Assembly: GCA_030645775.1 (NCBI GenBank)
Contig: JAUSLX010000168.1
Span: forward strand, 1-36,620
Length of the DNA: 36,620 nt
Direction: 5' to 3'
Origin: Gallionella sp.
Lineage (GTDB): Bacteria; Pseudomonadota; Gammaproteobacteria; Burkholderiales; Gallionellaceae
Positions 3,232-29,979 of the stretch are shown in pieces. A program made the position numbers and the translations under genes. Position 1 is the first letter of the stretch; each line of letters begins with the position of its first letter. Under the pieces are notes generated by a model. The model did no database searches, was not told where the DNA came from, and saw only the letters and a program-made list of their open reading frames with translations.

Positions 3232-3484
3232 GAATAGTGCGCAACGAAAAACATTGGAGGCGATTTTTGCCGCGCCTATGCCAAAAAACCTTGAGTGGGC
3301 GCGGATGGAGTCATTATTTGCGGCATTGGGGTGCGTCACGATTGAAGGAAATGGTTCACGGGTGCGTTTTGACTTGCATGGCGTGACCGGCACCTTTCAC
3401 CGGCCTCATCCGGCGAAGGAAGCCAAAACCTATCAGCTAAAGGATGTCAGGTTGTTTTTAAGCGAAGCGGGAGTAAAAGCATGA
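3230..3484 (+). CDS. hicA: HicA-type mRNA interferase toxin
   Basis: Small RNase toxin of a type II hicAB system, expected to cleave mRNA in the cytoplasm unless bound by HicB. The 84-residue product starts MNSAQRKTLEAIF, the typical start of this HicA subgroup. It has the double-stranded-RNA-binding-like fold pattern, with the conserved GSRVRF strand and a FHRPHP motif carrying the probable catalytic histidine. The ATG at 3230 is preferred over the in-frame ATGs at 3194 and 3209 because it matches the family start. The stop overlaps the hicB start in an ATGA junction (3481-3484), indicating translational coupling. Toxin comes first and antitoxin second, the classical hicAB order. There is no strong Shine-Dalgarno sequence. 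Confidence 0.9.
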   Translation: MNSAQRKTLEAIFAAPMPKNLEWARMESLFAALGCVTIEGNGSRVRFDLHGVTGTFHRPHPAKEAKTYQLKDVRLFLSEAGVKA

Positions 3485-3822
3485 ATACAATGACTTACAA
3501 AGGTTATGCTGCAAGGATTGAATACAGCGATGACGACGCTTGTCTAGTTGGGCATATCGCTGGCATTCGCGACGTGATTGGTTTTCATGCTGACAACGTG
3601 CAGGAACTGAGAGCGGCATTTGACGAGGCAGTAGATGACTATCTTGCTGCCTGCGCCAAAATTGGTAAGTCTCCCCATAAGCCAGTCAGTGGACGGCTAA
3701 TGTTGCGCGTACCACCGGAAATACATTCTGCCGCGCTTGTGGCAGCACAGGTCAGTGGGCAAAGTCTTAACCAATGGGCTACCCAGGCTTTGCAGCGCGC
3801 GGCGGGGCGCTATGAAAGCTAA
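3481..3822 (+). CDS. hicB: HicB-type antitoxin with C-terminal ribbon-helix-helix domain
   Basis: Antitoxin partner of the upstream HicA. The 113-residue protein has an N-terminal partly degraded RNase-H-like HicB domain (MTYKGYAARIEYSDDD, then HIAGIRDVIGFHADNVQEL). A C-terminal segment (about residues 70-110, GRLMLRVPPEIHSAALVAAQ) looks like an Arc/CopG ribbon-helix-helix DNA-binding domain. Such HicB proteins neutralise HicA and repress their own promoter, probably through the palindromes at 3184-3231. It is coupled to hicA by an ATGA overlap, and its 3' end overlaps the next small gene by 11 bp, so three genes may share one transcript. Confidence 0.9.
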   Translation: MNTMTYKGYAARIEYSDDDACLVGHIAGIRDVIGFHADNVQELRAAFDEAVDDYLAACAKIGKSPHKPVSGRLMLRVPPEIHSAALVAAQVSGQSLNQWATQALQRAAGRYES

Positions 3823-4078
3823 AAAACTGAATGTACAAGAAGACGATCTGCGCCCTGAATACGATTTTGATTTTCCCAAGGCAGAACGAGGCCGTTATGC
3901 AAATCGTCTGAAGACTGAAGGCTCAAACCTTGTCCGTATCGAGCCGGAATTGGCAAAGTCATTTTCCGATTCAGCTTCATTCAATGCGGCCTTGCGCACC
4001 ATCATTAAGTTTGCGCAGTGTTCGGCTAATCTGACGCAACATTCGGGCACAAGTGGCACCAAGCGGCGCGCTGCTTAA
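3812..4078 (+). CDS. Small antitoxin-like protein of unknown function overlapping hicB
   Basis: An 88-residue protein whose ATG lies inside the hicB 3' end (11-bp overlap), suggesting co-translation. It carries the signature EYDFDFPKAERGRYANRL followed by VRIEPELAKSFSDSASFNAALRTII. This form is common in short bacterial proteins encoded beside TA genes and sometimes annotated as antitoxins. The C-terminal tail (QHSGTSGTKRRAA) is low complexity and may be altered. No cognate toxin other than hicA or the following hicBA pair is adjacent, so it may be an orphan or a third member of the hicAB operon. The family resemblance is from memory of the motif; the function is not established here. Confidence 0.65.
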   Translation: MKAKKLNVQEDDLRPEYDFDFPKAERGRYANRLKTEGSNLVRIEPELAKSFSDSASFNAALRTIIKFAQCSANLTQHSGTSGTKRRAA

Positions 4079-4109
4079 TATCTGAAAAACATCACCAAGT
4101 GGAGACATC

Positions 4110-4316
4110 ATGCAACTGACAGCCGTTTTAACGCAAGCCGAGGAAGGCGGGTACATCGCCATGAATCCTGAAACAGGCACGACCACACAAGGAGAAACGA
4201 TAGACGAAGCCTTGTTGAATCTGCAGGACGCGACGGCGCTTTATCTGGAAGAGTTCCCCATGGTTTCTTACGGACACCCGCTGATAACCACGTTCGATAT
4301 CCCTGCTCATGCCTAA
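4110..4316 (+). CDS. HicB-like antitoxin, short form
   Basis: A 68-residue protein with the HicB/UPF0150 pattern: LTAVLTQAEEGGYIAMNPETGTTTQGETIDEALLNLQDATALYLEE. This is the partly degraded RNase-H-like fold found in short HicB antitoxins, here without a separate DNA-binding domain. It precedes and overlaps the next gene by 8 bp (4309-4316), so this module has the order antitoxin then toxin, the reverse of the pair at 3230-3822. A plausible ribosome-binding sequence (GTGGAGAC) lies just before the ATG. It is expected to neutralise the toxin at 4309-4530. Confidence 0.87.
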   Translation: MQLTAVLTQAEEGGYIAMNPETGTTTQGETIDEALLNLQDATALYLEEFPMVSYGHPLITTFDIPAHA

Positions 4317-4530
4317 GCTGCCGCACATCTCTGGTGCCCATGCCGTCAGGATATTTGAACGCATGGGATTTGTTGTTATGCGCCAAAACGGTAGTCACAT
4401 CGTCCTGCGCAAAGGCTTGTCAGGATGCGTTATACCGAATCACAAAGAAATCAAGATCGGTACGTTGGCTAGCGTACTGCGTCAGGCAGGTGTGTCGGCG
4501 GAAGAATTTATGCGTGTGCTGCATGACTAG
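4309..4530 (+). CDS. HicA-type (YcfA-like) toxin
   Basis: A 73-residue HicA/YcfA-family toxin beginning MPKLPHISGAHAVRIFERMGF, with the conserved GSHIVLRK motif that carries the catalytic histidine and the downstream NHKEIKIGTLASVLRQAGVS block. It is full length for the short YcfA-like group. The start overlaps the antitoxin gene, supporting coupled translation. It belongs to a different HicA subgroup from the toxin at 3230, so the two modules were probably acquired separately rather than produced by tandem duplication. The first is long HicA plus RHH-type HicB; the second is short YcfA plus short HicB. Confidence 0.9.
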   Translation: MPKLPHISGAHAVRIFERMGFVVMRQNGSHIVLRKGLSGCVIPNHKEIKIGTLASVLRQAGVSAEEFMRVLHD

Positions 4531-5480: not shown

Positions 5481-6062
5481 ATGTTTGAGGTACGAGTTCA
5501 TGGTCGTGGCGGCCAAGGCGTGGTGACAGCCGCAGAGATGCTGTCGGTTGCCGCGTTCGAGGAAGGACGTCATGCGCAGGCCTTTCCCAGCTTCGGTTCG
5601 GAGCGCACCGGCGCACCGGTGGTGGCATTCTGCCGTATCTCCGACAAAGAGATACGTCTGCGCGAACCTGTCATGGAACCGGATGCGATCATCATTCAGG
5701 ATCCCACCCTGTTACATCAGATCGACGTGTTTGCCGGATTAAAGCAGGACGGCTATGTGCTGCTCAATTCGCGTCACAGTATTGAGGAACTAGGCCTGGG
5801 CGAACTCATCAAGGGACGCAATGCAGAACGATTCTGCACCCTGTCAGCGACTGAGCTTGGTCTCAAGCATGTCGGCCGACCCATCCCCAATGTGCCGCTG
5901 CTGGCCGGATTCGCCGCACTCTCCGGCACGATCAAACTGGAATCGGTAATCAAAGCCATCAACGAGAAGTTTTCCGGAAAAGTGGCGTTGGGCAACATCG
6001 CCGCCGCCGAGGAAGCCTACCTGCTGGTGCAAGCCAAGATGAAGGAGTGGGCAGATGCTTAA
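5481..6062 (+). CDS. porC: 2-oxoacid:ferredoxin oxidoreductase, gamma subunit
   Basis: Gamma subunit of a thiamine-diphosphate 2-oxoacid (pyruvate-type) ferredoxin oxidoreductase, which interconverts 2-oxoacid plus CoA with acyl-CoA, CO2 and reduced ferredoxin. The 193-residue protein has the typical gamma start VRVHGRGGQGVVTAAEML and the AFPSFGSERTGAPV motif. A clear ribosome-binding site (GGGAGAGG, about 6 bp upstream) precedes the ATG. Its end overlaps the alpha gene by 8 bp. The operon runs gamma, alpha, (TA cassette), beta, flavoprotein. Substrate specificity (pyruvate versus 2-oxoglutarate or branched 2-oxoacids) cannot be settled from the sequence; the symbol follows the pyruvate-type subunit layout. 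Confidence 0.9.
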   Translation: MFEVRVHGRGGQGVVTAAEMLSVAAFEEGRHAQAFPSFGSERTGAPVVAFCRISDKEIRLREPVMEPDAIIIQDPTLLHQIDVFAGLKQDGYVLLNSRHSIEELGLGELIKGRNAERFCTLSATELGLKHVGRPIPNVPLLAGFAALSGTIKLESVIKAINEKFSGKVALGNIAAAEEAYLLVQAKMKEWADA

Positions 6063-7308
6063 GCAGACCGAAGGTTCCAAGGCCGTCGCGGAAGCCGTCG
6101 CGCTGTGCCGCCCCGAAGTGATCTGCGCCTATCCGATCTCGCCACAGACACATATCGTCGAAGCGCTGGGCGAAATGGTGAAGTCAGGCGAGCTGACACC
6201 CTGCGAATTTATCAACGTCGAGAGCGAATTTGCCGCGATGTCGGTGGCCATCGGCGCTTCGGCGGCGGGTGCGCGCGCCTATACAGCGACCGCCTCGCAA
6301 GGATTACTGTTCATGGCCGAGGCAGTTTATAACGCCTCCGGCCTCGGGCTGCCCATTGTGATGACGGTGGCCAACCGCGCCATCGGCGCACCGATAAACA
6401 TCTGGAACGACCATTCCGACTCGCTTTCGCAACGCGATTCCGGCTGGATGCAGTTGTTTGCCGAAACCAATCAGGAAGCGCTCGATCTGCATATCCAGGC
6501 GTTTCGCCTGGCAGAAGAATTGTCCATGCCCATCATGGTGTGCATGGACGGTTTCATCCTGACCCACGCCTTCGAGCGCGTGGACATCCCCTCGCAGCAA
6601 CAGGTCGATGCTTACCTGCCACCGTTTGATCCGCGTCAGGTACTCGATCCGGCAGAGCCGGTTTCCATCGGCGCGATGGTCGGCCCGGAAGCCTTCATGG
6701 AAGTGCGTTATCTCGCCCACGCCAAACAGATGCAGGCACTGGAACTGATCCCGCAACTGGCTGCCGAGTTCAGGGAAAAATTCGGACGTGAAAGCGGCGG
6801 ATTGGTGCGCAGCTACCGCGCCGACGATGCCGAAACCATGATTATCGCAATGGGCTCGGTGCTCGGAACAATCAAGGATACGGTGGACGAAATGCGCGAC
6901 GAGGGGCACAGGATCGGCGTGCTGGGCATCACTAGTTACCGGCCCTTTCCTCTGGAGCAGGTGCGCGCGGCGCTAATACACTGCAAACGATTCCTGGTAC
7001 TGGAAAAGAGTCTGGCGGTCGGCATGGGCGGCATTCTCGCCACCGATGTGCGCATGGCGGTAAGCGGCACGGGCCTGAAAGGTTACACCGCTGTCGCGGG
7101 CCTGGGCGGACGACCCATCCCAAAATCCTCGCTGCATAAACTTTTCCGCCAGGCGGAAAAGGAAGAGCTGCCACCCGTCACCTTCCTCGATCTGGACTGG
7201 GATGCGGTCAACAAACAACTGGAACGCGAGCGGCAGAGCCGCCACTCCGGCCCCATCGCCGAAAATATACTGCATGACAAGGGTATCGTTTCGGCCAAGT
7301 TCGGTTAG
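6055..7308 (+). CDS. porA: 2-oxoacid:ferredoxin oxidoreductase, alpha subunit
   Basis: Alpha subunit, carrying the pyrimidine-side thiamine-diphosphate domain and the transketolase C-terminal-like domain. The 417-residue protein shows YPISPQTHIVEALGEMV near residue 25, the VESEFAAMS glutamate region, TASQGLLFMAEAVYNASGLGLPIVM, and NIWNDHSDSLSQRDSGW, all hallmarks of PorA-type alpha subunits. The C-terminal third has the domain II region from about residue 262 (TMIIAMGSVLGTIKDTVDEM). The start overlaps porC by 8 bp, so the two are coupled. Its TAG stop (7306-7308) lies inside the left copy of the 92-bp duplication that brackets the TA cassette. In an uninterrupted operon porB would start immediately downstream. 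Confidence 0.93.
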   Translation: MLKQTEGSKAVAEAVALCRPEVICAYPISPQTHIVEALGEMVKSGELTPCEFINVESEFAAMSVAIGASAAGARAYTATASQGLLFMAEAVYNASGLGLPIVMTVANRAIGAPINIWNDHSDSLSQRDSGWMQLFAETNQEALDLHIQAFRLAEELSMPIMVCMDGFILTHAFERVDIPSQQQVDAYLPPFDPRQVLDPAEPVSIGAMVGPEAFMEVRYLAHAKQMQALELIPQLAAEFREKFGRESGGLVRSYRADDAETMIIAMGSVLGTIKDTVDEMRDEGHRIGVLGITSYRPFPLEQVRAALIHCKRFLVLEKSLAVGMGGILATDVRMAVSGTGLKGYTAVAGLGGRPIPKSSLHKLFRQAEKEELPPVTFLDLDWDAVNKQLERERQSRHSGPIAENILHDKGIVSAKFG

Positions 7309-7395
7309 GGATAATCATGGGTTTTCAACCAGTCAAGTTTTACCAGACCGGCACTTTCACCGTCGGCAACCGCCTGCTCGCACCAGACGAGCGCA
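7304..7395 (+). repeat. Left copy of a 92-bp direct repeat (partner 8103-8194)
   Basis: Bases 7304-7395 and 8103-8194 align without gaps. The first 26 codons of porB differ at only two bases (7367-7383 region: AAC versus AAT, CCAGAC versus CCGGAC), and the 13 bases upstream of the ATG differ at four. Homology stops abruptly after GACGAGCGCA. The repeats bracket the StbD/RelE cassette, and the right copy continues into the complete porB. They are proposed to mark the insertion event, as attachment-site-like or target-duplication repeats. Confidence 0.9.
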
Positions 7396-7460
7396 TCAAT
7401 AGTCGCAAAATAAATATAATTTGCATTTTATATTTCCCCAGACCTAGAATGCACTTATGA
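7317..7460 (+). pseudogene. Truncated duplicate of the porB 5' end
   Basis: The first 26 codons of porB (MGFQPVKFYQTGTFTVGNRL and six more) are repeated here ahead of the intact gene. They then run into unrelated AT-rich sequence and end at TGA 7458-7460, giving a 47-codon frame. That stop overlaps the ATG of the antitoxin (ATGA, 7457-7460), so ribosomes that translated porA and re-initiated at this false porB start would be delivered to the antitoxin start. The fragment cannot have enzyme activity. It is the scar, or host-side duplicate, of the TA cassette insertion. Confidence 0.88.
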
Positions 7461-7669
7461 ATACCGTCCTGTCACCGCTTGAATCAGAATTCGCCACGTC
7501 CGACGAAGCCGATGCTTACGATGCCTGGTTTCGCTCAAAGGTGGAAAAGTCGCTACAACAAGCGGATGAACCGAATGCAGTTCGCCTCTCACATGACGAA
7601 GTCATGTCAAAAGCCCGCGCCAGAATTGAAGCAAAGATAAAAGAGAATGCAGCACGTCGTCTGGCTTGA
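7457..7669 (+). CDS. StbD/RelB-like antitoxin (stability determinant)
   Basis: A 70-residue protein reading LSPLESEFATSDEADAYDAW, then FRSKVEKSLQQA and LSHDEVMSKARARIEAKIKE. This matches the short antitoxins annotated as stability determinants and paired with RelE/ParE toxins. The N-terminal half resembles the dimerisation/DNA-binding part and the C-terminal helix would wrap the toxin. It overlaps the toxin gene by 23 bp and starts within the stop codon of the truncated porB copy. Expression may therefore depend on the por operon transcript as well as on an AT-rich segment at 7396-7440 (TATAAT at 7415-7420, no good -35 box). Confidence 0.85.
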   Translation: MNTVLSPLESEFATSDEADAYDAWFRSKVEKSLQQADEPNAVRLSHDEVMSKARARIEAKIKENAARRLA

Positions 7670-7925
7670 AACAGCAAGCCGGGATTTAGACCAAATTCTC
7701 GGTTACATAGAAGACCGCAATTTACTTGCCGCGTTAAACTTGCAAGAGTCCATCGAATACGCAGTTTCGCAACTCCCGTTCCATCCTTATCTCTACCGAC
7801 TTGGACGAGTTCCCGGCACACGCGAACTGGTCGTCCACCCAAATTATTTGGTGATCTACCGGGTGGCAGTTTCAGCCATTGAGATCATCAACGTGGTGCA
7901 CGCCAGGCAGCAATACCCCTTTTAA
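7647..7925 (+). CDS. RelE/ParE-family toxin
   Basis: A 92-residue RelE/ParE superfamily toxin: VVWLETASRDLDQILGYIED, a middle LPFHPYLYRLGRVPGTRELVVHP, and the terminal YRVAVSAIEIINVVHARQQYPF. The motif order (WL..A..DL..I..YI, then R.G...GTREL, then I..V.HA.Q.YP) is that of the ParE-like group that pairs with StbD-type antitoxins. Members act as ribosome-dependent mRNA interferases or gyrase inhibitors; the sequence alone does not decide which. It appears full length. The toxin sits inside a core metabolic operon, so cassette loss would be penalised by post-segregational killing, which may explain its retention. Confidence 0.9.
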   Translation: MQHVVWLETASRDLDQILGYIEDRNLLAALNLQESIEYAVSQLPFHPYLYRLGRVPGTRELVVHPNYLVIYRVAVSAIEIINVVHARQQYPF

Positions 7926-8102
7926 CTTTCTATACGATTAAGGAAGCCAAATTTATTGCCCTACTGAAATTAAAAATGGTGATATTTTTCGGGTGGGACT
8001 CGCGATTAAGTTGGCTGGGGCGAAAAATGTAAAGGCTGCGGTTGCAGGGGCGGCAACGGCGGCAAGGAGCAAATAGTAATCATGAATAAACCAGAAAATT
8101 GA
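7926..8102 (+). other. Non-genic tail of the TA cassette with a coding-like remnant
   Basis: This stretch lies between the toxin stop and the right copy of the 92-bp repeat. A frame ending at TAG 8074-8076 reads KNGDIFRVGLAIKLAGAKNV followed by an alanine-rich tail. It has no start codon of its own and looks like the C-terminal end of an unrecognised gene. A six-codon frame (MNKPEN) at 8082-8102 ends just before the porB ribosome-binding region (TTAGGAGAC). No integrase, inverted repeat or tRNA is visible that would mark a known element type. Confidence 0.4.
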
Positions 8103-8194
8103 GTTAGGAGACATCATGGGTTTTCAACCAGTCAAGTTTTACCAGACCGGCACTTTCACCGTCGGCAATCGCCTGCTCGCACCGGACGAGCGCA
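8103..8194 (+). repeat. Right copy of the 92-bp direct repeat
   Basis: Partner of 7304-7395. It contains the working ribosome-binding site (TTAGGAGACATC before the ATG at 8116) and the first 26 codons of the intact porB. The right copy has a better Shine-Dalgarno sequence (AGGAG) than the left one (AGGGATAATC). Confidence 0.9.
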
Positions 8195-9126
8195 GTCTGC
8201 AATCAGGTGAGGCGCGCAGCAACTCGATTAACTCGGGCCACAGGGCGTGCCAGGGATGCGGCGAAGCGCTGGGCGCGCGTTATGCCATCGACGCGGCGAT
8301 GGCGGAAAGCAATAACCAGCTGATTGCGGCGAACGCAACCGGCTGCCTGGAAGTGTTTTCCACGCCTTATCCCGAATCGTCCTGGCAGGTGCCGTGGATA
8401 CATTCGCTGTTCGGCAATGCGGCGGCAGTTGCCACCGGCATCGCGGCGGCAATGAAGGTGAAGGGGCGGCCTGAGGTGCGCGTGGTGGCCCAGGGCGGCG
8501 ACGGCGGCACGACCGACATCGGTTTCGGCTGTCTGTCCGGCATGTTCGAGCGCAATGATGACGTGCTGTACATCTGCTACGACAACGAGGGTTACATGAA
8601 TACCGGCGTGCAGCGCTCTTCGGCCACACCTCCTGCGGCGCGTACCGCAACCACCATGCCGGTCGGCCCTGAGCCGGGCAACGTGTTCGGTCAGGGCAAA
8701 AACGTGCCGGAAATCGCCATGGCGCACGGCATTCCCTATGTTGCCACGGCGACGGTCGCCGACCTGCGCGATCTGGAATACAAGGTGCGTAAAGCCATGA
8801 AGATGCACGGTGCGCGTTACATCCATATTTTCGTGCCTTGCCCGCTGGGCTGGGGCACCGCCTCGCATGACACCATCCGCATGGCGCGTCTGGCCAAGGA
8901 ATCAGGCATGTTTCCGGTATTCGAAGCCGAACACGGCGAAGTCACCGGTGTACTGAAGATCCGCCACAAGGTCGAGGTGGAAGAGTATCTCAAGCCGCAG
9001 AAACGTTTCGCCCACTTGTTCGGCAAGAACGCCCATCCCGAAACGGTGGCGCGCATGCAAGCCATTGCCGATCGCAACATCCGCAAGTACGGCTTGCTGG
9101 AAGAGGAGGAGGTACAAAATGCCTAA
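8116..9126 (+). CDS. porB: 2-oxoacid:ferredoxin oxidoreductase, beta subunit
   Basis: Beta subunit, binding the thiamine-diphosphate pyrophosphate/Mg2+ end and one [4Fe-4S] cluster. The 336-residue protein shows CQGCGEALGAR (C45/C48), ATGCLEV, and FVPCPLGWG, together the four expected cluster cysteines. The ThDP/Mg motif is GGDGGTTDIGFG followed by YDNEGYMNTGVQ. An uninterrupted gene is regenerated downstream of the TA cassette because the first 92 bp are duplicated, so the product should be functional. Its end overlaps the flavoprotein gene (ATG at 9119 inside AATGCCTAA), indicating tight coupling. Production relative to porA now depends on read-through or re-initiation across an 807-bp insertion. 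Confidence 0.93.
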   Translation: MGFQPVKFYQTGTFTVGNRLLAPDERSLQSGEARSNSINSGHRACQGCGEALGARYAIDAAMAESNNQLIAANATGCLEVFSTPYPESSWQVPWIHSLFGNAAAVATGIAAAMKVKGRPEVRVVAQGGDGGTTDIGFGCLSGMFERNDDVLYICYDNEGYMNTGVQRSSATPPAARTATTMPVGPEPGNVFGQGKNVPEIAMAHGIPYVATATVADLRDLEYKVRKAMKMHGARYIHIFVPCPLGWGTASHDTIRMARLAKESGMFPVFEAEHGEVTGVLKIRHKVEVEEYLKPQKRFAHLFGKNAHPETVARMQAIADRNIRKYGLLEEEEVQNA

Positions 9127-10744
9127 CAAGCCGTTTGCGATTACGCTTAAACCCGGCACCTCGCTGGCCAATCTGACTGGCACTTGGCGCACCGCGCGCC
9201 CTGTCTATCTGGATCGCCTGCCACCGTGCAACAACGCCTGCCCGGCTGGCGAGAACATTCAGGGCTGGCTGTTTCACGCCGAATCCGGCGATTATCAACA
9301 AGCCTGGCGCGTGCTGGTGCAGGACAATCCGCTGCCTGCCGTGATGGGGCGCGTGTGCTACCACCCCTGCGAAGGCGCATGCAATCGCGGACAACTGGAC
9401 AGCGCCGTCGGCATCAATTCGGTCGAACGCTTCCTGGGCGATGAGGCGATCAAGCTAGGCTGGAAATTTAATGCCCCCGCCGCTGCCAGCGGCAAGAAGG
9501 TGCTGGTAGTCGGTGCCGGGCCATCGGGCCTTTCCGCCGCCTACCATCTGGCACGCATGGGCCATCAGGTCGAAATCCATGAAGCAGGCCCGCTGGCAGG
9601 CGGCATGATGCGTTTCGGCATTCCGAAGTATCGCTTGCCGCGCGAGGTGCTGGATGCCGAGGTTGCACGCATCGTTGATCTGGGCGTGACACTCAAACTC
9701 AACACCAAAGTGGAAAATATCGAGCAGAGCATGAAGCAGCATGGCTTCGATGCGGCTTTTCTGGCGGTCGGTGCCCATATCGGCAAGCGCGCTTTCATCC
9801 CCTCCGGCGATGCCGCGCACATCATAGATGCCGTATCCGTGCTGCGTTCGATGGAAGGTGAAGATAAGCCGATGCTGGGCCGCAAGGTCGTCGTGTACGG
9901 CGGCGGCAACACCGCGATCGACGTGGCGCGCACGGTCAAGCGCATGGGCGCCGAGCCGATTGTCGTCTATCGCCGCACGCGCGATAAAGCACCCGCGCAT
10001 GACTTCGAAATCGAGGAAGCACTGCAGGAAGGCGTGATGATCAAGTGGCTGTCCACCATCAAACAGGCTGATGCGGGTCAAATCACGGTCGAAAAAATGC
10101 AACTCGACGATAAGGGCTACCCGCAACCGACAGGTGAATTCGAAACGCTTGCAGCCGACTCCGTGGTATTGGCGCTCGGACAGGACGTTGATCTTTCCTT
10201 GCTGGAAGGCGTGTCCGGCCTGGAGATTGTGGACGGCACGGTACAGGTATCCGCCAACATGATGACCGGCCATCCCGGCATCTTTGCCGGTGGCGACATG
10301 GTGCCGTCAGAGCGCACCGTTACCGTGGCGGTAGGTCACGGCAAAAAGGCCGCGCTCAACATCAACGCCTGGCTGAACAATGCGACTTATGAACCCGCAC
10401 CCAAGCATGAACTGGCCAGTTTCGACAAGCTCAACCCGTGGTATTACTCGGATGCCGACAAAACAGTGCGCCCGATGCTGGACATCATCCGCCGCCAGAC
10501 CAGCTTCGACGAAGTGCAAGGCGGGCTGGATGAGAGCAATGCTTTATTTGAGGCACGCCGCTGCCTGTCATGCGGAAACTGCTTCGAATGCGACAACTGC
10601 TACGGCGTATGCCCGGACAATGCCGTCATCAAGCTGGGGCCCGGCAAGCGTTTCGAGTTTAACTACGATTACTGCAAAGGTTGTGGCATGTGTGCGACGG
10701 AATGCCCTTGCGGCGCAATTGTGATGGTGCCCGAAGAAACCTGA
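9119..10744 (+). CDS. GltD-like FAD/NAD(P) oxidoreductase fused to a two-[4Fe-4S] ferredoxin
   Basis: A 541-residue electron-transfer subunit of the Por complex. An N-terminal cysteine-rich helical domain (CNNACPAGENIQGW, VCYHPCEGACNRG) resembles the glutamate synthase small subunit. It is followed by an FAD Rossmann motif (VLVVGAGPSGLSAAYHLARMG) and an NAD(P) motif (VVVYGGGNTAIDVARTVKRMG). The C-terminus has a ferredoxin domain with CLSCGNCFECDNCYGVCP and CKGCGMCATECPCGA. The architecture suggests electrons from 2-oxoacid oxidation pass through the clusters to FAD and NAD(P)+, or the reverse for reductive carboxylation. NADP-coupled 2-oxoacid oxidoreductases with such a subunit are known from Azoarcus-type betaproteobacteria. 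The start at 9119 overlaps porB by 8 bp. Confidence 0.9.
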   Translation: MPNKPFAITLKPGTSLANLTGTWRTARPVYLDRLPPCNNACPAGENIQGWLFHAESGDYQQAWRVLVQDNPLPAVMGRVCYHPCEGACNRGQLDSAVGINSVERFLGDEAIKLGWKFNAPAAASGKKVLVVGAGPSGLSAAYHLARMGHQVEIHEAGPLAGGMMRFGIPKYRLPREVLDAEVARIVDLGVTLKLNTKVENIEQSMKQHGFDAAFLAVGAHIGKRAFIPSGDAAHIIDAVSVLRSMEGEDKPMLGRKVVVYGGGNTAIDVARTVKRMGAEPIVVYRRTRDKAPAHDFEIEEALQEGVMIKWLSTIKQADAGQITVEKMQLDDKGYPQPTGEFETLAADSVVLALGQDVDLSLLEGVSGLEIVDGTVQVSANMMTGHPGIFAGGDMVPSERTVTVAVGHGKKAALNINAWLNNATYEPAPKHELASFDKLNPWYYSDADKTVRPMLDIIRRQTSFDEVQGGLDESNALFEARRCLSCGNCFECDNCYGVCPDNAVIKLGPGKRFEFNYDYCKGCGMCATECPCGAIVMVPEET

Positions 10745-12798: not shown

Positions 12799-14220
12799 AT
12801 GCAGAGCACTCATAAACTGGCAGCTGCCGTCGACGGCAGTGGGAAAACCCGTTGCGGTTTTCTTAAGATGACCGCAATTGCAGTGTTTGTGTTGAGCGGT
12901 GTTGCGTCGCTCGGTATGGCACAGGCTGCGGTTGGCAAGGCGGAACAGACGTCGTTGAAGTTTGGTTTTATCAAACTGACCGATATGGTGCCACTGGCGA
13001 TTGCTTACGAGAAAGGTTATTTCGAGGATGAGGGCTTGTCCGTCATGCTTGAGGCGCAGGCAAACTGGAAGGTGCTGCTTGACCGTGTGGTCACAGGTGA
13101 ACTGGACGGCGCGCACATGCTGGCCGGTCAGCCTATTGGAGCCACCATTGGGTTTGGCACCAAGGCCAACATCATCACCGCATTCAGTATGGATATGAAC
13201 GGCAACGGTATCACCGTTTCCAACGCCGTGTGGAGCGAGCTCAAGAAGAAGCTGCCGATGAAGGATGGTAAGCCGGTACATCCGATAGACCCCAAGTATC
13301 TCAAAGCGGTTGTCGACGATTACAAGAAGCAGGGCAAGCAATTCAAGATGGGTATGGTATTTCCTGTGTCCACACATAATTACGAACTACGCTACTGGCT
13401 GGCAGCAGGCGGCATGAATCCTGGCTACTACGCGCCGGCCAAGGGCGACACCAGCGGCACTATCAAGGCGGACGTGCCGTTGTCTGTGACACCTCCACCC
13501 CAGATGCCGTCAACCATGGAGGCGGGCACAATAGACGGTTACTGCGTGGGTGAGCCGTGGAATCAGCAGGCGGTGTTCAAGGGTATTGGTGTGCCGATTG
13601 CCACCGACTCCGACGTGCAGAAGAACAATCCTGAGAAGGTATTCGGTGTTTCCAGGGCATGGGCGGAAAAAAATCCAAATACGCATATCCATGTCGTAAA
13701 AGCGCTGATCCGCGCGGGTTACTGGCTGGATGAGCAGAACAACAAGAACCGCATGGAAGCGGTAAAGATTATCGCCAAGTCTCAATATGTGGGCGCAGAC
13801 GAAAAAGTTATCGCTAACAGCATGACTGGAACCTTCGAATATGAAAAAGGTGACAAGCGTGCCGAGCCGGATTTCAACGTGTTCTTTCGCTACAACGCGA
13901 CCTATCCGTACTACAGCGATGCGATTTGGTATCTGACACAAATGCGTCGCTGGGGACAGATTGCAGAAGCGAAGCCGGATAACTGGTACCTCAAAATGGC
14001 GAAGGAAATTTATCGCCCGGACATTTATGCCATTGCTGCAAAGGAGTTGATCGCCGAAGGCAAGATGAAGGCAGCTGATTTCCCGGATTTTTCCAAGGAG
14101 ACCGGGTTTAAGGGCGCGCAAAGCGGCTTCATCGACGGTGTGGTGTATGACGGACGTAAGCCGAACGAGTACCTCAACAAGTTCAAGATAGGCCTGAAGC
14201 GCAACGATCAGCCGAAATAA
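12799..14220 (+). CDS. nrtA: Nitrate/nitrite ABC transporter, periplasmic substrate-binding protein
   Basis: Binds nitrate outside the inner membrane and delivers it to the NrtB permease. The 473-residue protein begins with a Sec-type signal (basic start, hydrophobic [20 protein letters not shown], cleavage near residue 43). The mature part has the NrtA/CmpA-family pattern: [21 protein letters not shown], then [51 protein letters not shown], and [19 protein letters not shown] lies 8 bases before the ATG at 12799. It is first in nrtABCD and is followed by a stable hairpin (14232-14251) that could protect the 3' end and raise binding-protein yield over the membrane subunits. Bicarbonate-binding CmpA is the alternative in the family; the nir/nas neighbours favour nitrate. 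Confidence 0.94.
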
Positions 14221-14231
14221 AAAGTGAAAAG

Positions 14232-14251
14232 GCCCCGGCGCAGGCCGGGGC
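14232..14251 (+). other. Intercistronic hairpin between nrtA and nrtB
   Basis: GCCCCGGC (14232-14239), loop GCAG, GCCGGGGC (14244-14251): a perfect 8-bp G+C stem with no U tract. Such hairpins between a binding-protein gene and its permease gene usually stabilise the upstream mRNA. The role is inferred from position and structure. Confidence 0.7.
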
Positions 14252-14273
14252 GAAAATACGGAGCGAGGTAAGC

Positions 14274-15266
14274 ATGAGCACAACAATACAACTATCCCTA
14301 TGGCAACGTCTGGCTGCACTGCTGCAGTCCAATGGTGAATCGAGAGCGCGGATAATTTTGCGCAGTATCGCGCCGCCGTTGCTTGGCATCATCGTTTTTC
14401 TCGGTATCTGGCATGTCGCGGCCAGTGGTGTCCAGACATCGCTGGGCACGCTGCCTGGGCCGGTTGCAGTGGCCAGTCAAGCCGGCAACCTGTATCAGGA
14501 GTATCGCAACGAGCAGGCGCGTGAGACTGCGTTTCATGAACGTCAGGAAGAACGCCGTGCGGAGTTCATGGCACAGAATCCGGGGCAGAAATTCGATGTC
14601 ATCAGCTACACCGGCCAGCCCACCTATCTGGACCAGATATTCACCAGTCTTTACACGGTATTCATCGGATTCATGCTGGGGACGATCATTGCCGTGCCGC
14701 TTGGGATACTGTGCGGGTTGAATCGCACGATACAGGCGGCGCTCAATCCGCTGATCCAGATTTTCCGGCCGGTATCGCCGCTTGCCTGGCTGCCCATCGT
14801 AACGCTGGTAGTGAGTGCGCTCTATGTCAGTGCAGACCCGATGTTTGCGAAGTCTTTCCTGGTTTCGGCGATCACGGTGACGCTGTGCTCGATGTGGCCG
14901 ACGCTGGTCAATACCGCCCTGGGTGTGGCGTCCATAGATAAGGATCTGCTCAACGTTTCCAAAGTGCTGCGTCTATCCACGCGTACCAAGGTGATGAAAA
15001 TCGTCATTCCATCGTCGCTTAAACTGATCTTTACCGGTATGCGCTTGTCTCTCGGCGTGGCATGGATGGTGCTGATTGCAGCCGAGATGTTGGCTCAGAA
15101 TCCCGGTCTGGGCAAGTTTGTCTGGGATGAATTCCAGAACGGCAGTTCGCAGTCGCTGGAACGCATCATGGTGGCGGTATTCACCATCGGTTTTGTTGGC
15201 TTTCTGCTCGACCGCTCCATGCATACTTTGCAGCAAATGGCTAGTTTCGGCCAACGCTCCGACTAA
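14274..15266 (+). CDS. nrtB: Nitrate ABC transporter permease
   Basis: Inner-membrane channel subunit of the nitrate importer. The 330-residue protein has an N-terminal membrane segment (about residues 31-50), a charged extracytoplasmic stretch (about 72-108, with EEYRNEQARETAFHER-like composition), and then the BPD_transp_1 permease domain with several helices. The coupling-helix EAA motif is recognisable around LNPLIQIFRPVSPLAWLPIV and SKVLRLSTRTKVMKIVIPSS. The ATG at 14274 follows GGAGCGAGGT. The gene lies 53 bp after nrtA, across the hairpin, and 25 bp before the ATPase gene. The long soluble insert between the first helix and the permease core is typical of the proteobacterial NrtB group. 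Confidence 0.93.
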   Translation: MSTTIQLSLWQRLAALLQSNGESRARIILRSIAPPLLGIIVFLGIWHVAASGVQTSLGTLPGPVAVASQAGNLYQEYRNEQARETAFHERQEERRAEFMAQNPGQKFDVISYTGQPTYLDQIFTSLYTVFIGFMLGTIIAVPLGILCGLNRTIQAALNPLIQIFRPVSPLAWLPIVTLVVSALYVSADPMFAKSFLVSAITVTLCSMWPTLVNTALGVASIDKDLLNVSKVLRLSTRTKVMKIVIPSSLKLIFTGMRLSLGVAWMVLIAAEMLAQNPGLGKFVWDEFQNGSSQSLERIMVAVFTIGFVGFLLDRSMHTLQQMASFGQRSD

Positions 15267-15291
15267 GACGAATAATCAGGAAAATTGAATC

Positions 15292-17016
15292 ATGTCCAAC
15301 TATCAACTTGCAGTAGAAGAGTCATATGAAGCGCTCTCTGCACCGGAGGCGGGGGTGCTGAGCCTGGAGTTCAAGGGTGTCAGCAAATCGTTTGGCACCG
15401 GGGCGCAGCGTACGGTCGTGCTGAAAGACATCAATCTGCAGATCAGGGAAGGTGAATTCGTCGCCATTGTCGGTTTTTCCGGCAGCGGCAAATCCACCCT
15501 GATCTCGCTGATAGCGGGTTTGCAGCAGGCTGATGAAGGTGAGGTGCTGTGCAACGGTCAGGTTATCGAAGGGCCGGGGCCGGATCGGGGTGTGGTGTTT
15601 CAGAATTATTCCCTGATGCCGTGGATGACGGTACGTCAGAATGTGGCGCTTTCGGTCGACCAGGTATTCAGCAAGGCCACTCAGGCGGAGCGTACGGCAC
15701 GGGTCGAGAAATACATAGACATGGTGAATCTCACTCCTGCCATGGATAAAAGGCCGTCCGAACTGTCAGGCGGCATGCGCCAGCGGGTATCGGTGGCGCG
15801 TGCCCTGGCGGCTGCACCGGATATCCTGTTGCTTGATGAGCCGCTGGGCGCGCTGGACGCGCTTACCCGTTCCAAGCTGCAGGATGAGATCATTCGTATC
15901 TGGAGTCAGGAGAAAAAAACCGTCGTGCTTATCACTAACGATGTGGACGAAGGCATCATCATGGCCGACCGCATTATTCCCTTGAACCCGGGGCCGAATG
16001 CAACGCTGGGGCCGGAGTTTCACGTGACCTTGCCCAGGCCGCGCGACCGGGCGGCGATCAATCATTCACCGGAATTCAAGCGTATCCGCCGCGAAGTGAC
16101 CCAGTATCTGATGCGGGTCGGCTCTGAAAAAAATGCGGCGACTGAGAATAATGTCGTCAGCTTGCCACAGGTTCTGCCCAACACCTCGCGAGAACATCAG
16201 CTTGAAGCGAATCGGAAGCCGCGCAATGTCGTCGCTGTGGAACGCTACGTCGATTTCTCGCAGGTATCGAAGATTTATCCGACCCGAAAAGGACCGGTTA
16301 AGGTCGTCGATGGCTTTGATCTCAAGATACGCAAGGGCGAGTTCATTTCCGTTATCGGTCACTCAGGCTGTGGCAAATCGACTGTGCTGTCCATGATGGC
16401 AGGCCTCAACGATATTAGTGCAGGTGTCATTGTTCTGGACGGGCGCGAAGTCGACAACGCGGGGCCGGATCGCGGCATTGTGTTTCAGGCACCCAGTCTC
16501 GTGCCATGGCTAAGTGCTTATGAGAATGTCGCTCTGGGTGTGGAGCAGGTTTACCCGCATGCCAGCAAACAGGAGCGCCGGGATATTATCGAGAATTATC
16601 TGGCTCGGGTAGGGCTGGCCGAGGTGTGGGATAAGAAAGCTTCCGAGCTTTCCAATGGCATGAAGCAACGTGTCGGTATCGCCCGCGCGTTTGCGCTCTC
16701 GCCCAAGATGCTGTTGCTCGATGAGCCGTTCGGCATGCTGGATTCGCTGACGCGCTGGGACTTGCAGGAGGTGCTGATGGAAGTCTGGACGCGTACCCAG
16801 GTCACAGCCATGATGGTCACCCATGATGTGGACGAAGCGATTCTGCTTGCCGACCGCGTGGTGATGATGACCAACGGGCCGAATGCCAGGGTGGGCAAAA
16901 TACTGGAAATCAACCTGCCGCGTCCGCGCACGCGCAAGATGTTGCTGGAACATCCGGATTATTACGCTCTGCGCGAGCAACTCCTTACCTTCCTCGCCGA
17001 ATGCGATCATGCCTGA
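15292..17016 (+). CDS. nrtCD: Nitrate ABC transporter ATPase, two nucleotide-binding domains in one chain
   Basis: A 574-residue fusion of two ABC ATPase domains that powers NrtAB. Domain 1 (about 24-275): Walker [10 protein letters not shown] (61-69), signature LSGGM (158-162), Walker B ILLLDEP (178-184), and ITNDVDEG at the switch where N216 replaces the usual histidine. Domain 2 (about 318-570): Walker [10 protein letters not shown] (356-364), signature LSNGM (453-457), Walker B MLLLDEP, and VTHDVDEA with H511. In cyanobacteria the two ATPases are separate and NrtC carries an extra binding-protein-like domain; that domain is absent here. The non-standard switch residue of domain 1 and altered signature of domain 2 fall in the same composite ATP site, so one site may be regulatory. 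Last gene of the nrt operon. Confidence 0.92.
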
Positions 17017-22920: not shown

Positions 22921-23256
22921 ATGAACTGGATACAAGTCGGCAATCTGGAAGATATTCCGCGCCAGGGTTCACGAATCATCAAGACTGCAACGGGCGAGAT
23001 TGCGCTGTTTCGCAGCGTGGACGATCAGGTGTTCGCGTTGAACAATCGTTGTCCGCACAAAGGCGGGCAGCTGTCACAAGGCATCGTGCACGGCACACGC
23101 GTCACCTGTCCTATGCATAACTGGGTCATTGATCTGGAGTCGGGCGAGGCCGTCGCACCGGATAAAGGCTGTGCGCACAGGCATGAAGTACGGGTTGCAC
23201 ATGGCGTGGTGTTTCTTGAAGTCGGCAACAAGGTACAAGGCACGAGGTGTGAGTAA
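22921..23256 (+). CDS. nirD: Nitrite reductase small subunit, Rieske-type
   Basis: Small subunit of NADH-nitrite reductase. The 111-residue protein has a Rieske fold with CPHKGGQLSQG and CPMHNWVIDLESGEA, giving the Cys-X-His and Cys-X2-His [2Fe-2S] ligands. Many NirD proteins have lost these residues, so this is the cluster-binding subtype. AAGGAG lies 8 bases before the ATG. It is separated from nirB by the class B repeat and from nasA by only 10 bp. The C-terminal residues (QGTRCE) run close to the repeat-like start of nasA. Confidence 0.94.
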   Translation: MNWIQVGNLEDIPRQGSRIIKTATGEIALFRSVDDQVFALNNRCPHKGGQLSQGIVHGTRVTCPMHNWVIDLESGEAVAPDKGCAHRHEVRVAHGVVFLEVGNKVQGTRCE

Positions 23257-23266
23257 CCTCCAAACC

Positions 23267-26218
23267 ATGAAACCTCAGTCCTCAGTCCTTAACCCTCAGT
23301 CCTCGGTCTTGACCACCTGTCCTTATTGTGGCGTTGGCTGTGGTGTTGAAGTCAAGGTCGGCGCGGAGACGGTCACTTTGGCAGGGGACAAGCGTCATCC
23401 GGCCAATTCCGGGCGGCTGTGCTCCAAGGGTGCGGCGCTGGCTGACACGCTGGATAACGAAGGGAAGTTGCTTTACCCACTGGTAAATAATCGCCGTACA
23501 TCCTGGGAGGATGCGCTGGGGCGTGTCGCTTCCGGGTTCAAGAAAATCATCACAGAACATGGGCCGGAGGCGGTCGCTTTTTACGTGTCCGGGCAGTTGC
23601 TGACCGAAGATTATTACGTCGCCAACAAGTTGATGAAGGGATTCATCGGCAGCGCGAACATCGACACCAATTCGCGCCTTTGCATGTCTACCGCAGTGGC
23701 GGCCCACAAGCGCGCTTTCGGTGCCGATGCGGTGCCGGTTTGTTATGAGGATGTCGAAACCGCAGACCTGGTCGTCATAGTTGGTTCCAACTATGCGTGG
23801 GCACACCCCGTGTTGTATCAGCGTCTGGTCGCCGCAAAAAAAGCGCGGCCCGAAATGCAGGTGGTCGTGATTGACCCGCGTCGTACCGCGACCTGTGATA
23901 TCGCCGATCTGCATCTGGCGATTGCGCCGGGGGCGGATGCGTATCTGTTCAACGGTCTGCTGCATCATTTGCGCCGCGAGGACGCACTTGATCTGGCTTA
24001 CGTCGAGGCGCATGTGGAGGGCTTTGCCGCTGCCTTTGCGGCGGCGCGCGAAGGCGGATCGATTCCGAAAGTGGCACGAATTTGCGGCCTTGCCGAGACA
24101 CAGTTGGGCGAGTTTTATCAATTATTTGCGCGTACCGGGCGCACCGTGACCATTTTCTCACAAGGCATCAACCAATCCTCCAGTGGCGTGGACAAGGCCA
24201 ACGCGATTATCAATGTGCACCTGGCCACCGGGCGCATAGGCCGTCCCGGCATGGGGCCTTTTTCGGTAACCGGTCAGCCCAACGCGATGGGCGGGCGGGA
24301 AGTGGGCGGTCTGGCCAATCAACTGGCGGCCCATATGGATTTCTCCGATCAGGCCAGTGTGGATCGGGTGGCGCGCTTCTGGAATGCGCCTAACATCGCA
24401 CAGGCACCGGGTCTGAAAGCCGTGGATATGTTTCAGGCCATCGCCTCGGGAAAGATCAAGGCAGTTTGGATCATGGGCACCAATCCGGTGGTCAGCATGC
24501 CAGATGCGGATCGGGTGCGTGCCGCCCTGTTGGGTTGCGAGCTGGTAGTGGTATCCGATTGCGTGCAACACACCGACACCACCGCCTGCGCCGACATTCT
24601 GCTGCCCGCCACAGGCTGGGGCGAAAAGGACGGTACGGTGACTAATTCCGAACGATGTATTTCCCGGCAGCGCGCCCTGTTGCCCGCATCGGGCGAAGCG
24701 CGGCCGGACTGGTGGATCATCTCCCGGGTCGCACAACGGATGGGCTATGCCGAGGCGTTCGACTATACCAAGCCAGCGCAGATTTTCCGCGAACATGCGC
24801 GCCTGTCGGGTTTTGAAAACAAAGGTAACGGGCAAGCCCGTCTCCCTCTCTCTAACTCTGATGAAACAACTAGCCATTCGTCTAAGCTGTCAAAAAACGG
24901 CAGCCAAGACGCTGGTTATCTCCCGCAAGCGGGAGAAAGGACAACCGAATCGCTACGCGAATTTCATATGAGCCGCGCCTTCGACATCAGCGCCTGGTCG
25001 GAACTGAGCGATGAAGAATACGATGCACTGCTACCTGCGCAATGGCCAGTGTACCTTACACCCCCCTTGGAAAAAGGGGGGCAGGGGGGATTTAACGGCA
25101 CACCGCGACTTTTTACAGACGGGAAGTTTTATACGCCCAACGGCCGCGCACGCATGGTCGCCGTCGCGCCTCGACTACCCGCCGTGGCGGTGGATAGCGA
25201 TTTTCCGCTGGTGCTGAATACCGGCCGGATACGCGACCAATGGCACACCATGACCCGTACCGGCAAGGTGCCGCGTCTGAACGCACATCTGCCGGAACCT
25301 TTCGTACAAGTTCAAATGTCCGACGCGCAAGGCTACCAGCTTGCCAATGGCGGCTTGGCGTGCCTGACCAGTCGCCACGGCAGCATGCTGGCGCGCATAC
25401 AGGTCAGTGAAGATCAGCGCCCGGGTTCGGTGTTCGTGCCCATGCACTGGAATGATGCGTTTGCCAAATCGGCACGTGTGGACGCGCTGGTCGCACCGAT
25501 CACCGATCCGATTTCCGGTCAGCCGGAATCCAAACACACGCCGGTACGGGTGGAGTCCTATCAGCCGGCCTGGCAGGGTTTTGTGCTCAGCCGTGTCCGG
25601 CTGGAATTGCCGGATACTCGTTACTGCGCCCATTCACAGGGTGCGGGTTACTGGCGACACGAGATCGCGGGCGAGCGCATACCACAGGATTGGTGCGAGT
25701 GGGTGCAAGCGGCCTTGCATCCACGACCCCCTCCCCCTTGCAGGGGGAGGGTTGGGGTGGGGGTAGAGCCGAGAGGAAATCTTGAATTCACCCCCTCCCC
25801 AACCCTCCCCCTGCAAGGGGGAGGGAGTGATGCAGAGAACACTTGTCAGTGGCTTGAATATCGCGATGCGGCGATGGGGCGTTATCGTGCCGCCTGTATT
25901 CTGGATGGTCGTCTGGAAGCGGTGTTTTTTATAGCAATGGATCATCGTTTGCCGGAACGCGAATGGCTCGCCAGCCTGTTTGGAAAAGCCAAACTTGAAG
26001 CCGCCGAACTAGCCGGATTGTTGGCCGCCCGCCCGCCCAAGGGGGGCGATACGGGGCATATCGTTTGTGCCTGTTATAGCGTGGGTGAAAAGACCATACT
26101 GAATGCGATTCAGGAGCAGGGTTTAGCCAGCGTGGAAGCGGTTGGTCAGTGCCTGAAGGCAGGCACCCAGTGCGGTTCCTGTGTGCCGGAAATTCGCCGC
26201 CTGCTGGAGCACCATTAA
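23267..26218 (+). CDS. nasA: Assimilatory nitrate reductase catalytic subunit
   Basis: Molybdopterin enzyme reducing nitrate to nitrite in the cytoplasm. The 983-residue chain has the [4Fe-4S] motif CPYCGVGC (C18, C21, C25) with C52 in GRLCSKG. The molybdopterin domains follow (FIGSANIDTNSRLCMSTAVAA with the Mo-ligand Cys region, GPFSVTGQPNAMGGREVGG, WIMGTNPVVSMPDADRVR). A C-terminal BFD-like [2Fe-2S] domain (CACYSVGEK, C934/C936; QCGSC, C969/C972) accepts electrons. Three foreign segments interrupt it at about residues 523-568, 597-610 and 820-855, all encoded by GC-rich repeats in frame, and the N-terminus PQSSVLNPQSSVL comes from a direct repeat. Their positions are between core motifs, so the enzyme could still fold. 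ATG 23267 has no good Shine-Dalgarno site; coupling to nirD is likely. Confidence 0.94.
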   Translation: MKPQSSVLNPQSSVLTTCPYCGVGCGVEVKVGAETVTLAGDKRHPANSGRLCSKGAALADTLDNEGKLLYPLVNNRRTSWEDALGRVASGFKKIITEHGPEAVAFYVSGQLLTEDYYVANKLMKGFIGSANIDTNSRLCMSTAVAAHKRAFGADAVPVCYEDVETADLVVIVGSNYAWAHPVLYQRLVAAKKARPEMQVVVIDPRRTATCDIADLHLAIAPGADAYLFNGLLHHLRREDALDLAYVEAHVEGFAAAFAAAREGGSIPKVARICGLAETQLGEFYQLFARTGRTVTIFSQGINQSSSGVDKANAIINVHLATGRIGRPGMGPFSVTGQPNAMGGREVGGLANQLAAHMDFSDQASVDRVARFWNAPNIAQAPGLKAVDMFQAIASGKIKAVWIMGTNPVVSMPDADRVRAALLGCELVVVSDCVQHTDTTACADILLPATGWGEKDGTVTNSERCISRQRALLPASGEARPDWWIISRVAQRMGYAEAFDYTKPAQIFREHARLSGFENKGNGQARLPLSNSDETTSHSSKLSKNGSQDAGYLPQAGERTTESLREFHMSRAFDISAWSELSDEEYDALLPAQWPVYLTPPLEKGGQGGFNGTPRLFTDGKFYTPNGRARMVAVAPRLPAVAVDSDFPLVLNTGRIRDQWHTMTRTGKVPRLNAHLPEPFVQVQMSDAQGYQLANGGLACLTSRHGSMLARIQVSEDQRPGSVFVPMHWNDAFAKSARVDALVAPITDPISGQPESKHTPVRVESYQPAWQGFVLSRVRLELPDTRYCAHSQGAGYWRHEIAGERIPQDWCEWVQAALHPRPPPPCRGRVGVGVEPRGNLEFTPSPTLPLQGGGSDAENTCQWLEYRDAAMGRYRAACILDGRLEAVFFIAMDHRLPEREWLASLFGKAKLEAAELAGLLAARPPKGGDTGHIVCACYSVGEKTILNAIQEQGLASVEAVGQCLKAGTQCGSCVPEIRRLLEHH
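23273..23310 (+). repeat. Class C direct repeat forming the NasA N-terminus
   Basis: CCTCAGTCCT occurs at 23273-23282, 23280-23289 and 23294-23303, followed by a degenerate fourth unit CCTCGGTCTT. The units encode PQSSVLNPQSSVL ahead of the TTCPYCGVGC motif. Related CTCAGTTCTCAG...CCTCAG sequence lies at 28413-28435, at the 3' end of the Bro-N pseudogene. Confidence 0.75.
24833..24970 (+). repeat. Insertion in nasA containing a peptide-coding palindromic repeat
   Basis: This stretch encodes a serine-rich segment and then LPQAGERTTESLREFHM, absent from usual NasA proteins between the FREHARLSGF and SRAFDISAWSELSDEEYD blocks. Its last 50 bases (24920-24969), starting with CTCCCGCAAGCGGGAG, align without gaps to 28789-28740 on the minus strand inside the Bro-N pseudogene. 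The 3' 24 bases differ at only two positions. Confidence 0.85.
25058..25094 (+). repeat. Class D palindrome in frame within nasA
   Basis: CACCCCCCTTGGAAAAAGGGG followed by GGCAGGGGGGAT encodes TPPLEKGGQGGF, roughly NasA residues 597-610. It follows the QWPVYL block and precedes the TPRLFTDGKFYTPNGRAR motif that normally comes next. Its arms are C6 and G6 around an A-rich loop, so it is a different repeat class from A. Confidence 0.8.
25726..25830 (+). repeat. Two class A copies in inverted orientation within nasA
   Basis: The left copy (25726-25763, CCCCCTCCCCCTTGCAGGGG plus GAGGGTTGGGGTGGGGG) and right copy (25791-25826) are inverted relative to each other, separated by a 27-base spacer. 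Together they encode residues about 820-855 of NasA in frame (PPPPCRGRVGVGVEPRG then TPSPTLPLQGGGSD). RNA from this region could fold into a very stable long hairpin inside the coding sequence. Confidence 0.88.
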
Positions 26219-29345: not shown

Positions 29346-29445
29346 GAATTTTATCTCCCCTTTTCAGTTGCCTGTCTGGCTATGCAGCAAGAAATAATCG
29401 CGATTATGAGTATTGCGGTGATGGGGCATGTTTATGTCCGGCGAA

Positions 29446-29979
29446 CTATTTGATGATTCTTTCTAGCGCGCCATCTTGCAAACACTGTAGGTTTAATAGT
29501 GCAGGCGATCGATTAAAAAATTCACGTAAAGGAGCTTTTGCGCTATGCCAGCCAGCACCATCCGTAATCCAAATAAATTCGCTTTTGTATTTTTGATTCT
29601 CCGTGTCTGTATGCCCATGCTCTGCGAAAAAGGCACTTACATCTTTATATTCGCCAGCAGTTGACTTAAGTTTTGAACCGCCACCACCATAAAAATTCGT
29701 CTCGATAAAGTACAAGCGGTTTGCTATTTGCACAGCGAAATCTATTCGTCTATCAGTTTTATCTACCGCAATATCAATATGCCATTCCGCTTTAATTTTG
29801 GCTTTAGTAGCTTGCGCCATATAAACACCACCTTGTTTCGAGGCTGCACTTGCGATGAATGGCTCAACTATGCTTTCCATCATCGTTCCAGTTCTATTTT
29901 TCCTCGCATTAGAATCTAGGCCAACCTCTGCACCCGTCGCGTATTCCTGCTTCGGTATCTTCATCATTTGCCTTTCCAA
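29446..29979 (-). pseudogene. C-terminal part of a DpnII/MboI-type restriction endonuclease
   Basis: The 177-residue frame reads VGLDSNARKNRTGTMMESIV, then DRRIDFAVQIANRLYFIETN directly followed by FYGGGGSKLKSTAGEYKDVS and IWITDGAGWHSAKAPLREFF. These are conserved blocks of the DpnII family, which cuts GATC when unmethylated. Full DpnII enzymes have about 290 residues; roughly the first 110 are absent, and a TAG in the same frame near 30010-30030 stops further extension. No cognate adenine methyltransferase is visible in the window. An active enzyme would be dangerous without one, so this is probably an inactive remnant. The catalytic D..E-N core may still be present in the fragment. Confidence 0.83.

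Follow-up and report, generated by a model that had tools for sequence, protein, structure and literature searches.

We analysed a 36,620-base window of Gallionella sp., a single 36.6-kb contig (C171) from a 2.28-Mb draft genome of 269 contigs (coded G000), in which a toxin-antitoxin pair lies within the por (pyruvate/2-oxoacid:ferredoxin oxidoreductase) operon. By Pfam scan, this operon runs porG, porA, porB and a gltD-like gene on the plus strand. The distance from porA to porB is 807 bp, and the interval holds the toxin-antitoxin pair together with a direct repeat that flanks it. The closest named relatives of this porB are Gallionellaceae records (Gallionella, Sideroxydans). The features of the locus are as follows.

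6055–7308, plus strand: porA, pyruvate/2-oxoacid:ferredoxin oxidoreductase alpha (Pfam POR_N, PFOR_II).
7297–7395, plus strand: left repeat copy, with the end of porA, the spacer and porB codons 1–26 (repeat search).
7317–7460, plus strand: truncated porB' open reading frame (ORF), 47 codons long, with a stop codon that overlaps the ATG of the antitoxin.
7396–7456, plus strand: cassette leader, homologous from about 7438 to the pairs of genomes G015 and G095.
7457–7669, plus strand: antitoxin, 70 amino acids (aa), PaaA2-like, RelB family (PDB, NCBIfam, Pfam near its cut-off).
7647–7925, plus strand: toxin, 92 aa, ParE2-like (Pfam ParE_toxin, PDB 5cw7/5cze).
7926–8095, plus strand: tail of 170 bp, origin unassigned, G+C 0.44, with a weak 70% match (106 bp) in G095.
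8096–8194, plus strand: right repeat copy, with the ribosome-binding site and the start of intact porB (repeat search).
8116–9126, plus strand: porB, intact, 336 aa (Pfam, NCBIfam).
9119–10744, plus strand: gltD-like oxidoreductase, next in the operon, overlapping porB by 8 nt (Pfam).

The two repeat copies (7297–7395 and 8096–8194) are 99 nt long, lie at a spacing of 799 and are identical at 90 of 99 positions, forming the sole direct repeat family of at least 30 nt reported for the window. An earlier note on this DNA had described a 92-bp duplication; that span (7304–7395) is real, matches its copy at 86 of 92 positions and is part of the longer repeat. As the note also stated, porB is whole, and its first 26 codons with 13 upstream bases stand on both sides of the pair. 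Compared from their ATGs (7317 and 8116), the copies agree at 77 of 79 positions, both differences (codons 18 and 23) being synonymous, and the 13 bases upstream differ at 4 in an ungapped comparison. The identical run shared by the copies is at most 56 nt, and an AGGAG resembling a ribosome-binding site still precedes porB. The G+C content of the insert is 0.47, compared with 0.60–0.61 for porA and porB.

Upstream of the pair, the stop of the truncated porB' frame (7458–7460) overlaps the antitoxin ATG (7457) as ATGA, an arrangement that could couple translation of the antitoxin to the operon; because ATGA belongs to the antitoxin start, an in-frame overlap of this kind has a chance of about one third. 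A −10-like TAGAAT in the leader, picked by eye, may be the pair's own candidate promoter, and a promoter consensus scan gave none in the leader. The terminator scan was near chance, with three sites, one of them on the operon strand, against a shuffle mean of 1.2. For the tail, no repeat family was found: 74 of the 76 genomes of the genus that form our comparison set match it at E<=1, nearly all of them by short, chance-like stretches, and the G095 stretch that matches it lies upstream of a VapBC-like pair.

The pair is a predicted PaaA2/ParE2-like type II toxin-antitoxin system, so called because of its matches to structures and protein families. The toxin matches Pfam ParE_toxin (6.1e-14) and the ParE of PDB 5cw7/5cze (2.2e-24), and the antitoxin matches PDB 3zbe (PaaA2; 5.2e-06), entries that we take to be PaaA2/ParE2 of E. 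coli O157. With a Pfam PaaA2 score of 26.1 bits, the antitoxin falls 0.9 bits short of the cut-off of 27. We therefore correct the StbD/RelE label of the earlier note to PaaA2/ParE2-like; in NCBIfam, the antitoxin lies above the RelB family cut-off and the toxin belongs to the RelE_StbE subfamily. The antitoxin directly precedes the toxin, and the two frames overlap by 23 nt. PaaA2/ParE2 systems have a three-gene form with PaaR. Both proteins of the window pair match the E. coli O157 proteins by sequence, whereas the 148 bp that separate porA from the antitoxin leave no room for a PaaR-type third gene.

DNA of the pair is matched in four of the 76 genomes, those of the window, G015, G095 and G023, at 78–82% identity. 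The four toxins are 93–96% identical as proteins, and this conservation above the level of the DNA suggests that the toxin gene is kept under constraint. Toxin relatives were present in 2433 of 72,556 plasmid records (six at 60–80% identity, the others lower) and in 1 of 50,697 phage records, and a pattern scan of viral contigs found none.

The window cassette is an insertion, because the porA–porB junction is empty, with a gap of 9–23 bp, in 28 of the 38 loci measured in the genus (37 genomes, G097 contributing two). The earlier note had proposed a search for such uninterrupted junctions in relatives, and they are thus the common state; its term 'core operon' does not hold, porAB being present in only 38 of the 76 genomes. 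The sequence of the flanking repeat, about 100 bp, is single-copy in relatives. Could the arrangement instead be an artefact of metagenome assembly, in which strains that carry the cassette and strains that lack it were joined into a chimera? The fragmented draft would allow it, and the whole 700-bp insert was found in no other of the 76 genomes. The repeat copies, however, disagree at 9 of 99 positions. The 56-nt run of identity includes neither edge of the cassette, so that a k-mer jump inside the repeat would not produce the left edge. Inserts between porA and porB also recur in other genomes, and we regard an artefact as very improbable.

The porA–porB junction is reused by several unrelated cargoes, one of which, in G010, is counted from two contig ends only. 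Gaps of at least 94 bp occur at 10 of the 38 junctions, the longest being those of G022 (1391 bp), G090 (1030 bp) and the window genome. The G022 insert encodes one 459-aa protein of the anti-phage family PD-T7-1 (3.7e-181; L113, 4006–5385), the stop of whose gene overlaps the porB start, and the G090 insert (scanned as L036, a contig that has the same 108,002 bases and the same 1030-bp gap) carries an LprI-like gene besides an ORF of 123 aa. Seven further inserts are shorter (G021 226, G024 221, G076 204, G028 157, G009 155, G072 100 and G069 94 bp) and are mutually unrelated at E<=1e-3, except for a palindromic element in G069 and G072. When 11 junctions were compared with shuffles for stubs of the porB start, eight were non-significant; the others were the known case of the window, an in-register match in G072 (17 of 22 nt, p = 0.01) and an out-of-register match in L050 (p = 0.005). 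Short porB-start stubs in other inserts are thus suggestive at most.

In G010, the remaining genome of the 38 that have porAB, the two genes are on separate contigs (L112, L126) and both adjoin type I restriction genes: porA is followed immediately by hsdM, and porB is preceded immediately by a full-length hsdR. The two hsdR copies of this genome are about 80% identical, and either recombination between these copies or a faulty assembly may account for the split operon. Ordinary genes (lipoyl ligase, DAHP synthase, EF-Tu) come after the restriction genes on the contig that bears porA, which makes a rearrangement or misjoin possible there; the genome is listed at 5% contamination.

Neighbouring junctions of the operon seldom carry inserts. 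Gaps of at least 90 bp were found at porG–porA in 0 of 37 loci and at porB–gltD in 0 of 39 in a first set (the gltD query being one base off frame), and in a second set, partly redundant since three contigs were counted twice, in 1 of 32 (L041, 114 bp) and 1 of 34 (L053, 141 bp), respectively, compared with 11 of 33 at porA–porB. Fisher tests of porA–porB against these two junctions gave p < 0.001, a contrast that does not separate tolerance from preference. At porG–porA and porB–gltD the genes overlap or abut and are seldom gapped; these junctions therefore provide no test of site preference, and porA–porB may simply be a slot where insertion breaks nothing. Longer gaps also occur at the outer junctions. 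Between the upstream gene and porG, 5 of 23 loci in the second set had gaps of 571–667 bp (0 of 8 in the first), which we suspect to be tandem FKBP paralogues, and between gltD and mur the gap was at least 90 bp in 18 of 20 loci in the second set and 3 of 7 in the first. A value of −770 (G009/L034) in these measurements is a misplaced match.

The relatives of the pair lie elsewhere in their genomes, and the porB repeat therefore does not travel with the pair, an outcome that the earlier note had itself named as refuting its reading. The note had proposed a search for other cassettes flanked by duplicated 5' gene ends; of the three related pairs, two adjoin copies of the 3' end of mogA, and the third, in G023, adjoins other genes with only a 36-nt, 72% match. 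In G015 (L128, L221), the order is mogA, a nucleotidyltransferase-like pair, a copy of the final 31 codons of mogA and the toxin-antitoxin pair, whose leader begins right after the stop of the mogA copy; the names mogA and nucleotidyltransferase-like were read from sequence without a family search. G095 (L129, L222) is arranged in the same way, with two copies of the mogA 3' end and an intact mogA on another contig, and G075 (L236) has mogA, a deleted remnant of the nucleotidyltransferase-like pair and a decayed copy of the mogA 3' end. The three arrangements may descend from one ancient event.

To its own mogA the G015 fragment is identical at 80 of 93 positions, compared with 88 to that of G006, 87 to G016 and 86 to both G075 and G062 (30 mogA tails compared, from fetched loci; 60 genomes have a mogA match). 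Site-by-site sign tests of the fragment against four relatives gave p = 0.039, 0.039, 0.11 and 0.21. Because it is closer to the mogA of other species than to its own, the fragment was probably brought in from elsewhere as a gene end, unless the gene itself was replaced later. More generally, direct repeats occurred in 5 of the 30 toxin loci that were fetched (out of 33 matches): porB, mogA in G015, L267, and L272 and L283, the last two resembling dispersed intergenic repeats. The G095 locus L258 scored as repeat-free, its 1.5-kb flank cutting one copy off. Repeats were found in 15 of 97 control loci, including four of the six toxin-pair loci (L127–L132) that had entered the control set by mistake; the other 11 comprised nine por-region tandem repeats of 280–317 nt, L229 with 36 nt, and L236, the mogA locus of G075.

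Some integrases use gene ends and restore the gene on insertion. The window fits this in part, as the earlier note had remarked: the insertion is at the 5' end of porB, the gene start stands on both sides and is restored downstream, and the mogA case presents the mirror geometry at a gene 3' end. A mini-element could thus have integrated site-specifically with an integrase supplied in trans. Against this, the same pair lies beside two unrelated genes, or in G023 beside neither, the repeat copies are non-identical, and att cores are usually far shorter than a 99-nt repeat. We Pfam-scanned 29 of the 195 mechanical ORFs of the window and found no integrase or transposase among them, consistent with the note's statement that none is visible; the search was confined to the window. 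Since the relatives of the pair differ in target and no recombinase was seen in these 29 ORFs, an integrase acting on porB is unlikely; the likeness to integrative elements lends no support to one that specifically targets porB, and we rate site-specific integration as a highly unlikely origin.

We favour, with a probability of roughly 0.45, capture of the cassette without an integrase, with one end joined by homology in porB and the other illegitimately at codon 27. In favour of this stand the repeat with its intact porB, the empty junctions of relatives, the other cargo found between porA and porB, the excess of differences in the spacer, the mogA parallel and published precedents. The PaaA2/ParE2-like cassette would have entered at porA–porB, a slot of a Gallionellaceae por operon that tolerates inserts, and would have carried no integrase. 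The donor, we infer, would have been a DNA fragment from a closely related strain in which the cassette was already linked to porB. Homologous recombination at porB would account for one side and an illegitimate join at codon 27 of the resident porB for the other. The resident porB start would then have become the 99-nt stub upstream, with the incoming copy serving as the working porB. A recent transfer from a G010-like donor was considered and dropped, as the higher identity on the porB side also appears when G014 is compared with G010 (89% for porB, 85% on the porA side).

The alternative is that the cassette entered porB near codon 27 and that about 99 bp of target were duplicated in repair or replication, the copies then diverging; no donor-linked porB is required. 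This account has precedents (PMC3031569, PMC1643837), and it accommodates both a direct repeat of about 100 bp that flanks the insert and is single in relatives, and porB copies that are nearer to each other than to any compared relative. The spacer, however, differs more than the coding part (4 of 13 positions against 2 of 79; Fisher p = 0.003 ungapped, post hoc; 3 of 13 and p = 0.02 with gaps), which suggests that the two copies are two alleles rather than one decaying copy. The repeat of the G015 mogA parallel looks imported, and the scanned window ORFs include no recombinase or transposase. We consider target duplication a close rival, somewhat less probable than capture.

Several observations weigh against capture with a donor-linked porB. 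The spacer signal weakens once gaps are allowed, and selection on the ribosome-binding site could also produce the spacer differences. The porB copies are of one lineage, matching each other at 77 of 79 positions and the compared relatives at 73 of 79 at best, and a simple duplication would therefore fit as well. Operon identity to seven relatives, taken in 400-bp steps, shows no clear breakpoint at porB, and a donor bearing the cassette without the repeat was not found among the 76 genomes. In the stretches searched, G010, G022 and G090 each have a single porB start and a single porA end, and insertions at this junction are therefore not marked by the repeat as a rule; no direct repeat of at least 25 nt was found around the gene-bearing inserts of G022 and G090. 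At the G023 pair, a long gene-end repeat was likewise not found.

Related cases are described in the literature. Target duplications of about 100 bp accompany the insertion of restriction-modification genes (PMC3874152, PMC3031569, PMC1643837), and the long target duplication of Helicobacter pylori (Nobusato 2000, Furuta 2010) is reported through citing papers. The H. pylori insertions share with our locus a small addiction-type cargo, no transposase seen, a repeat of about 100 bp and empty relatives. Our cargo, in contrast, consists of a type II toxin and its antitoxin, and a gene start within an operon is restored by the repeat, whose copies may represent two alleles; in the mogA parallel, the repeat looks imported. 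Restriction-modification systems have also been found inserted within operons, including between the glutamate synthase large and small chains (PMC4615327). These, too, are addiction genes that lie among the genes of a single pathway and share their strand; our case differs in cargo and operon and in having more than one type of cargo at one junction. A toxin-antitoxin review (PMC2654758), citing the same founding paper, describes restriction-modification systems as likewise addictive and apparently mobile.

Homology-facilitated illegitimate recombination has been measured in E. coli (PMC3240628) and proposed for the effector-immunity arrays of Vibrio cholerae, where gene remnants are left behind (PMC5361080). 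Those arrays share with the capture we favour one homologous anchor, one illegitimate end and displaced gene remnants, whereas they are secretion-system modules and ours is a metabolic operon whose remnant comes from the start of a gene. Hotspots of transfer that lack mobile elements, and where flanking core genes recombine (PMC5635113), similarly show varying cargo between conserved genes with no mobility genes seen; our slot, by contrast, is usually a 9–12-bp gap within the operon of one enzyme and has no clear flanking breakpoint. Among the matches listed, in which subscription journals are thinly covered, we found no publication that treats the porA–porB junction or describes a repeat of this kind beside a toxin-antitoxin pair within an operon.

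Elsewhere the window has other features. Just upstream of the por region, at 3481–4530, a hicB-like and a hicA-like gene are separated by about 490 bp. A defence-like cluster at 28683–32709 comprises Bro-N, a DpnII-like endonuclease that matches the second half of the profile only, an HNH nuclease, an HTH/Gp49 (HigBA-like) pair and a CcdA antitoxin. The nitrate-type ABC transporter (nrt) operon at 12799–17016 is 94% identical to G010 over its full length; it was unusable as a control junction, with long matches in only three of the 75 other genus genomes (G010, G014, G032). A 39-nt inverted repeat at 25726–25828, 95% complementary with a 25-nt loop and G-rich and C-rich runs, lies inside a molybdopterin oxidoreductase ORF (23129–26218), between the matched domains.

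The locus bears on how small genes for addiction and defence are mobilised in the absence of transposases. The insertion and the broken 26-codon copy of porB, at a junction where some relatives have other defence genes, suggest that genes of this sort are able to spread with no integrase of their own, and the case combines a gene-regenerating repeat, a junction with recurrent cargo and a second locus whose repeat is perhaps traceable to another species. A duplicated target and an imported donor end are separable by setting the divergence between the copies against that of the flanking genes. In a wider and more doubtful proposal, which we offer tentatively, toxin-antitoxin and single defence genes of the Gallionellaceae would spread without integrases of their own by moving together with part of an adjacent housekeeping gene; gene-end duplicates (the porB start, the mogA end) would be donor-derived scars, and porA–porB would be a standing landing slot for defence genes within one enzyme's operon. 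If this is true, what has been published as 'long target duplications' may in many cases consist of ends brought in from a donor, with no duplication of the target.

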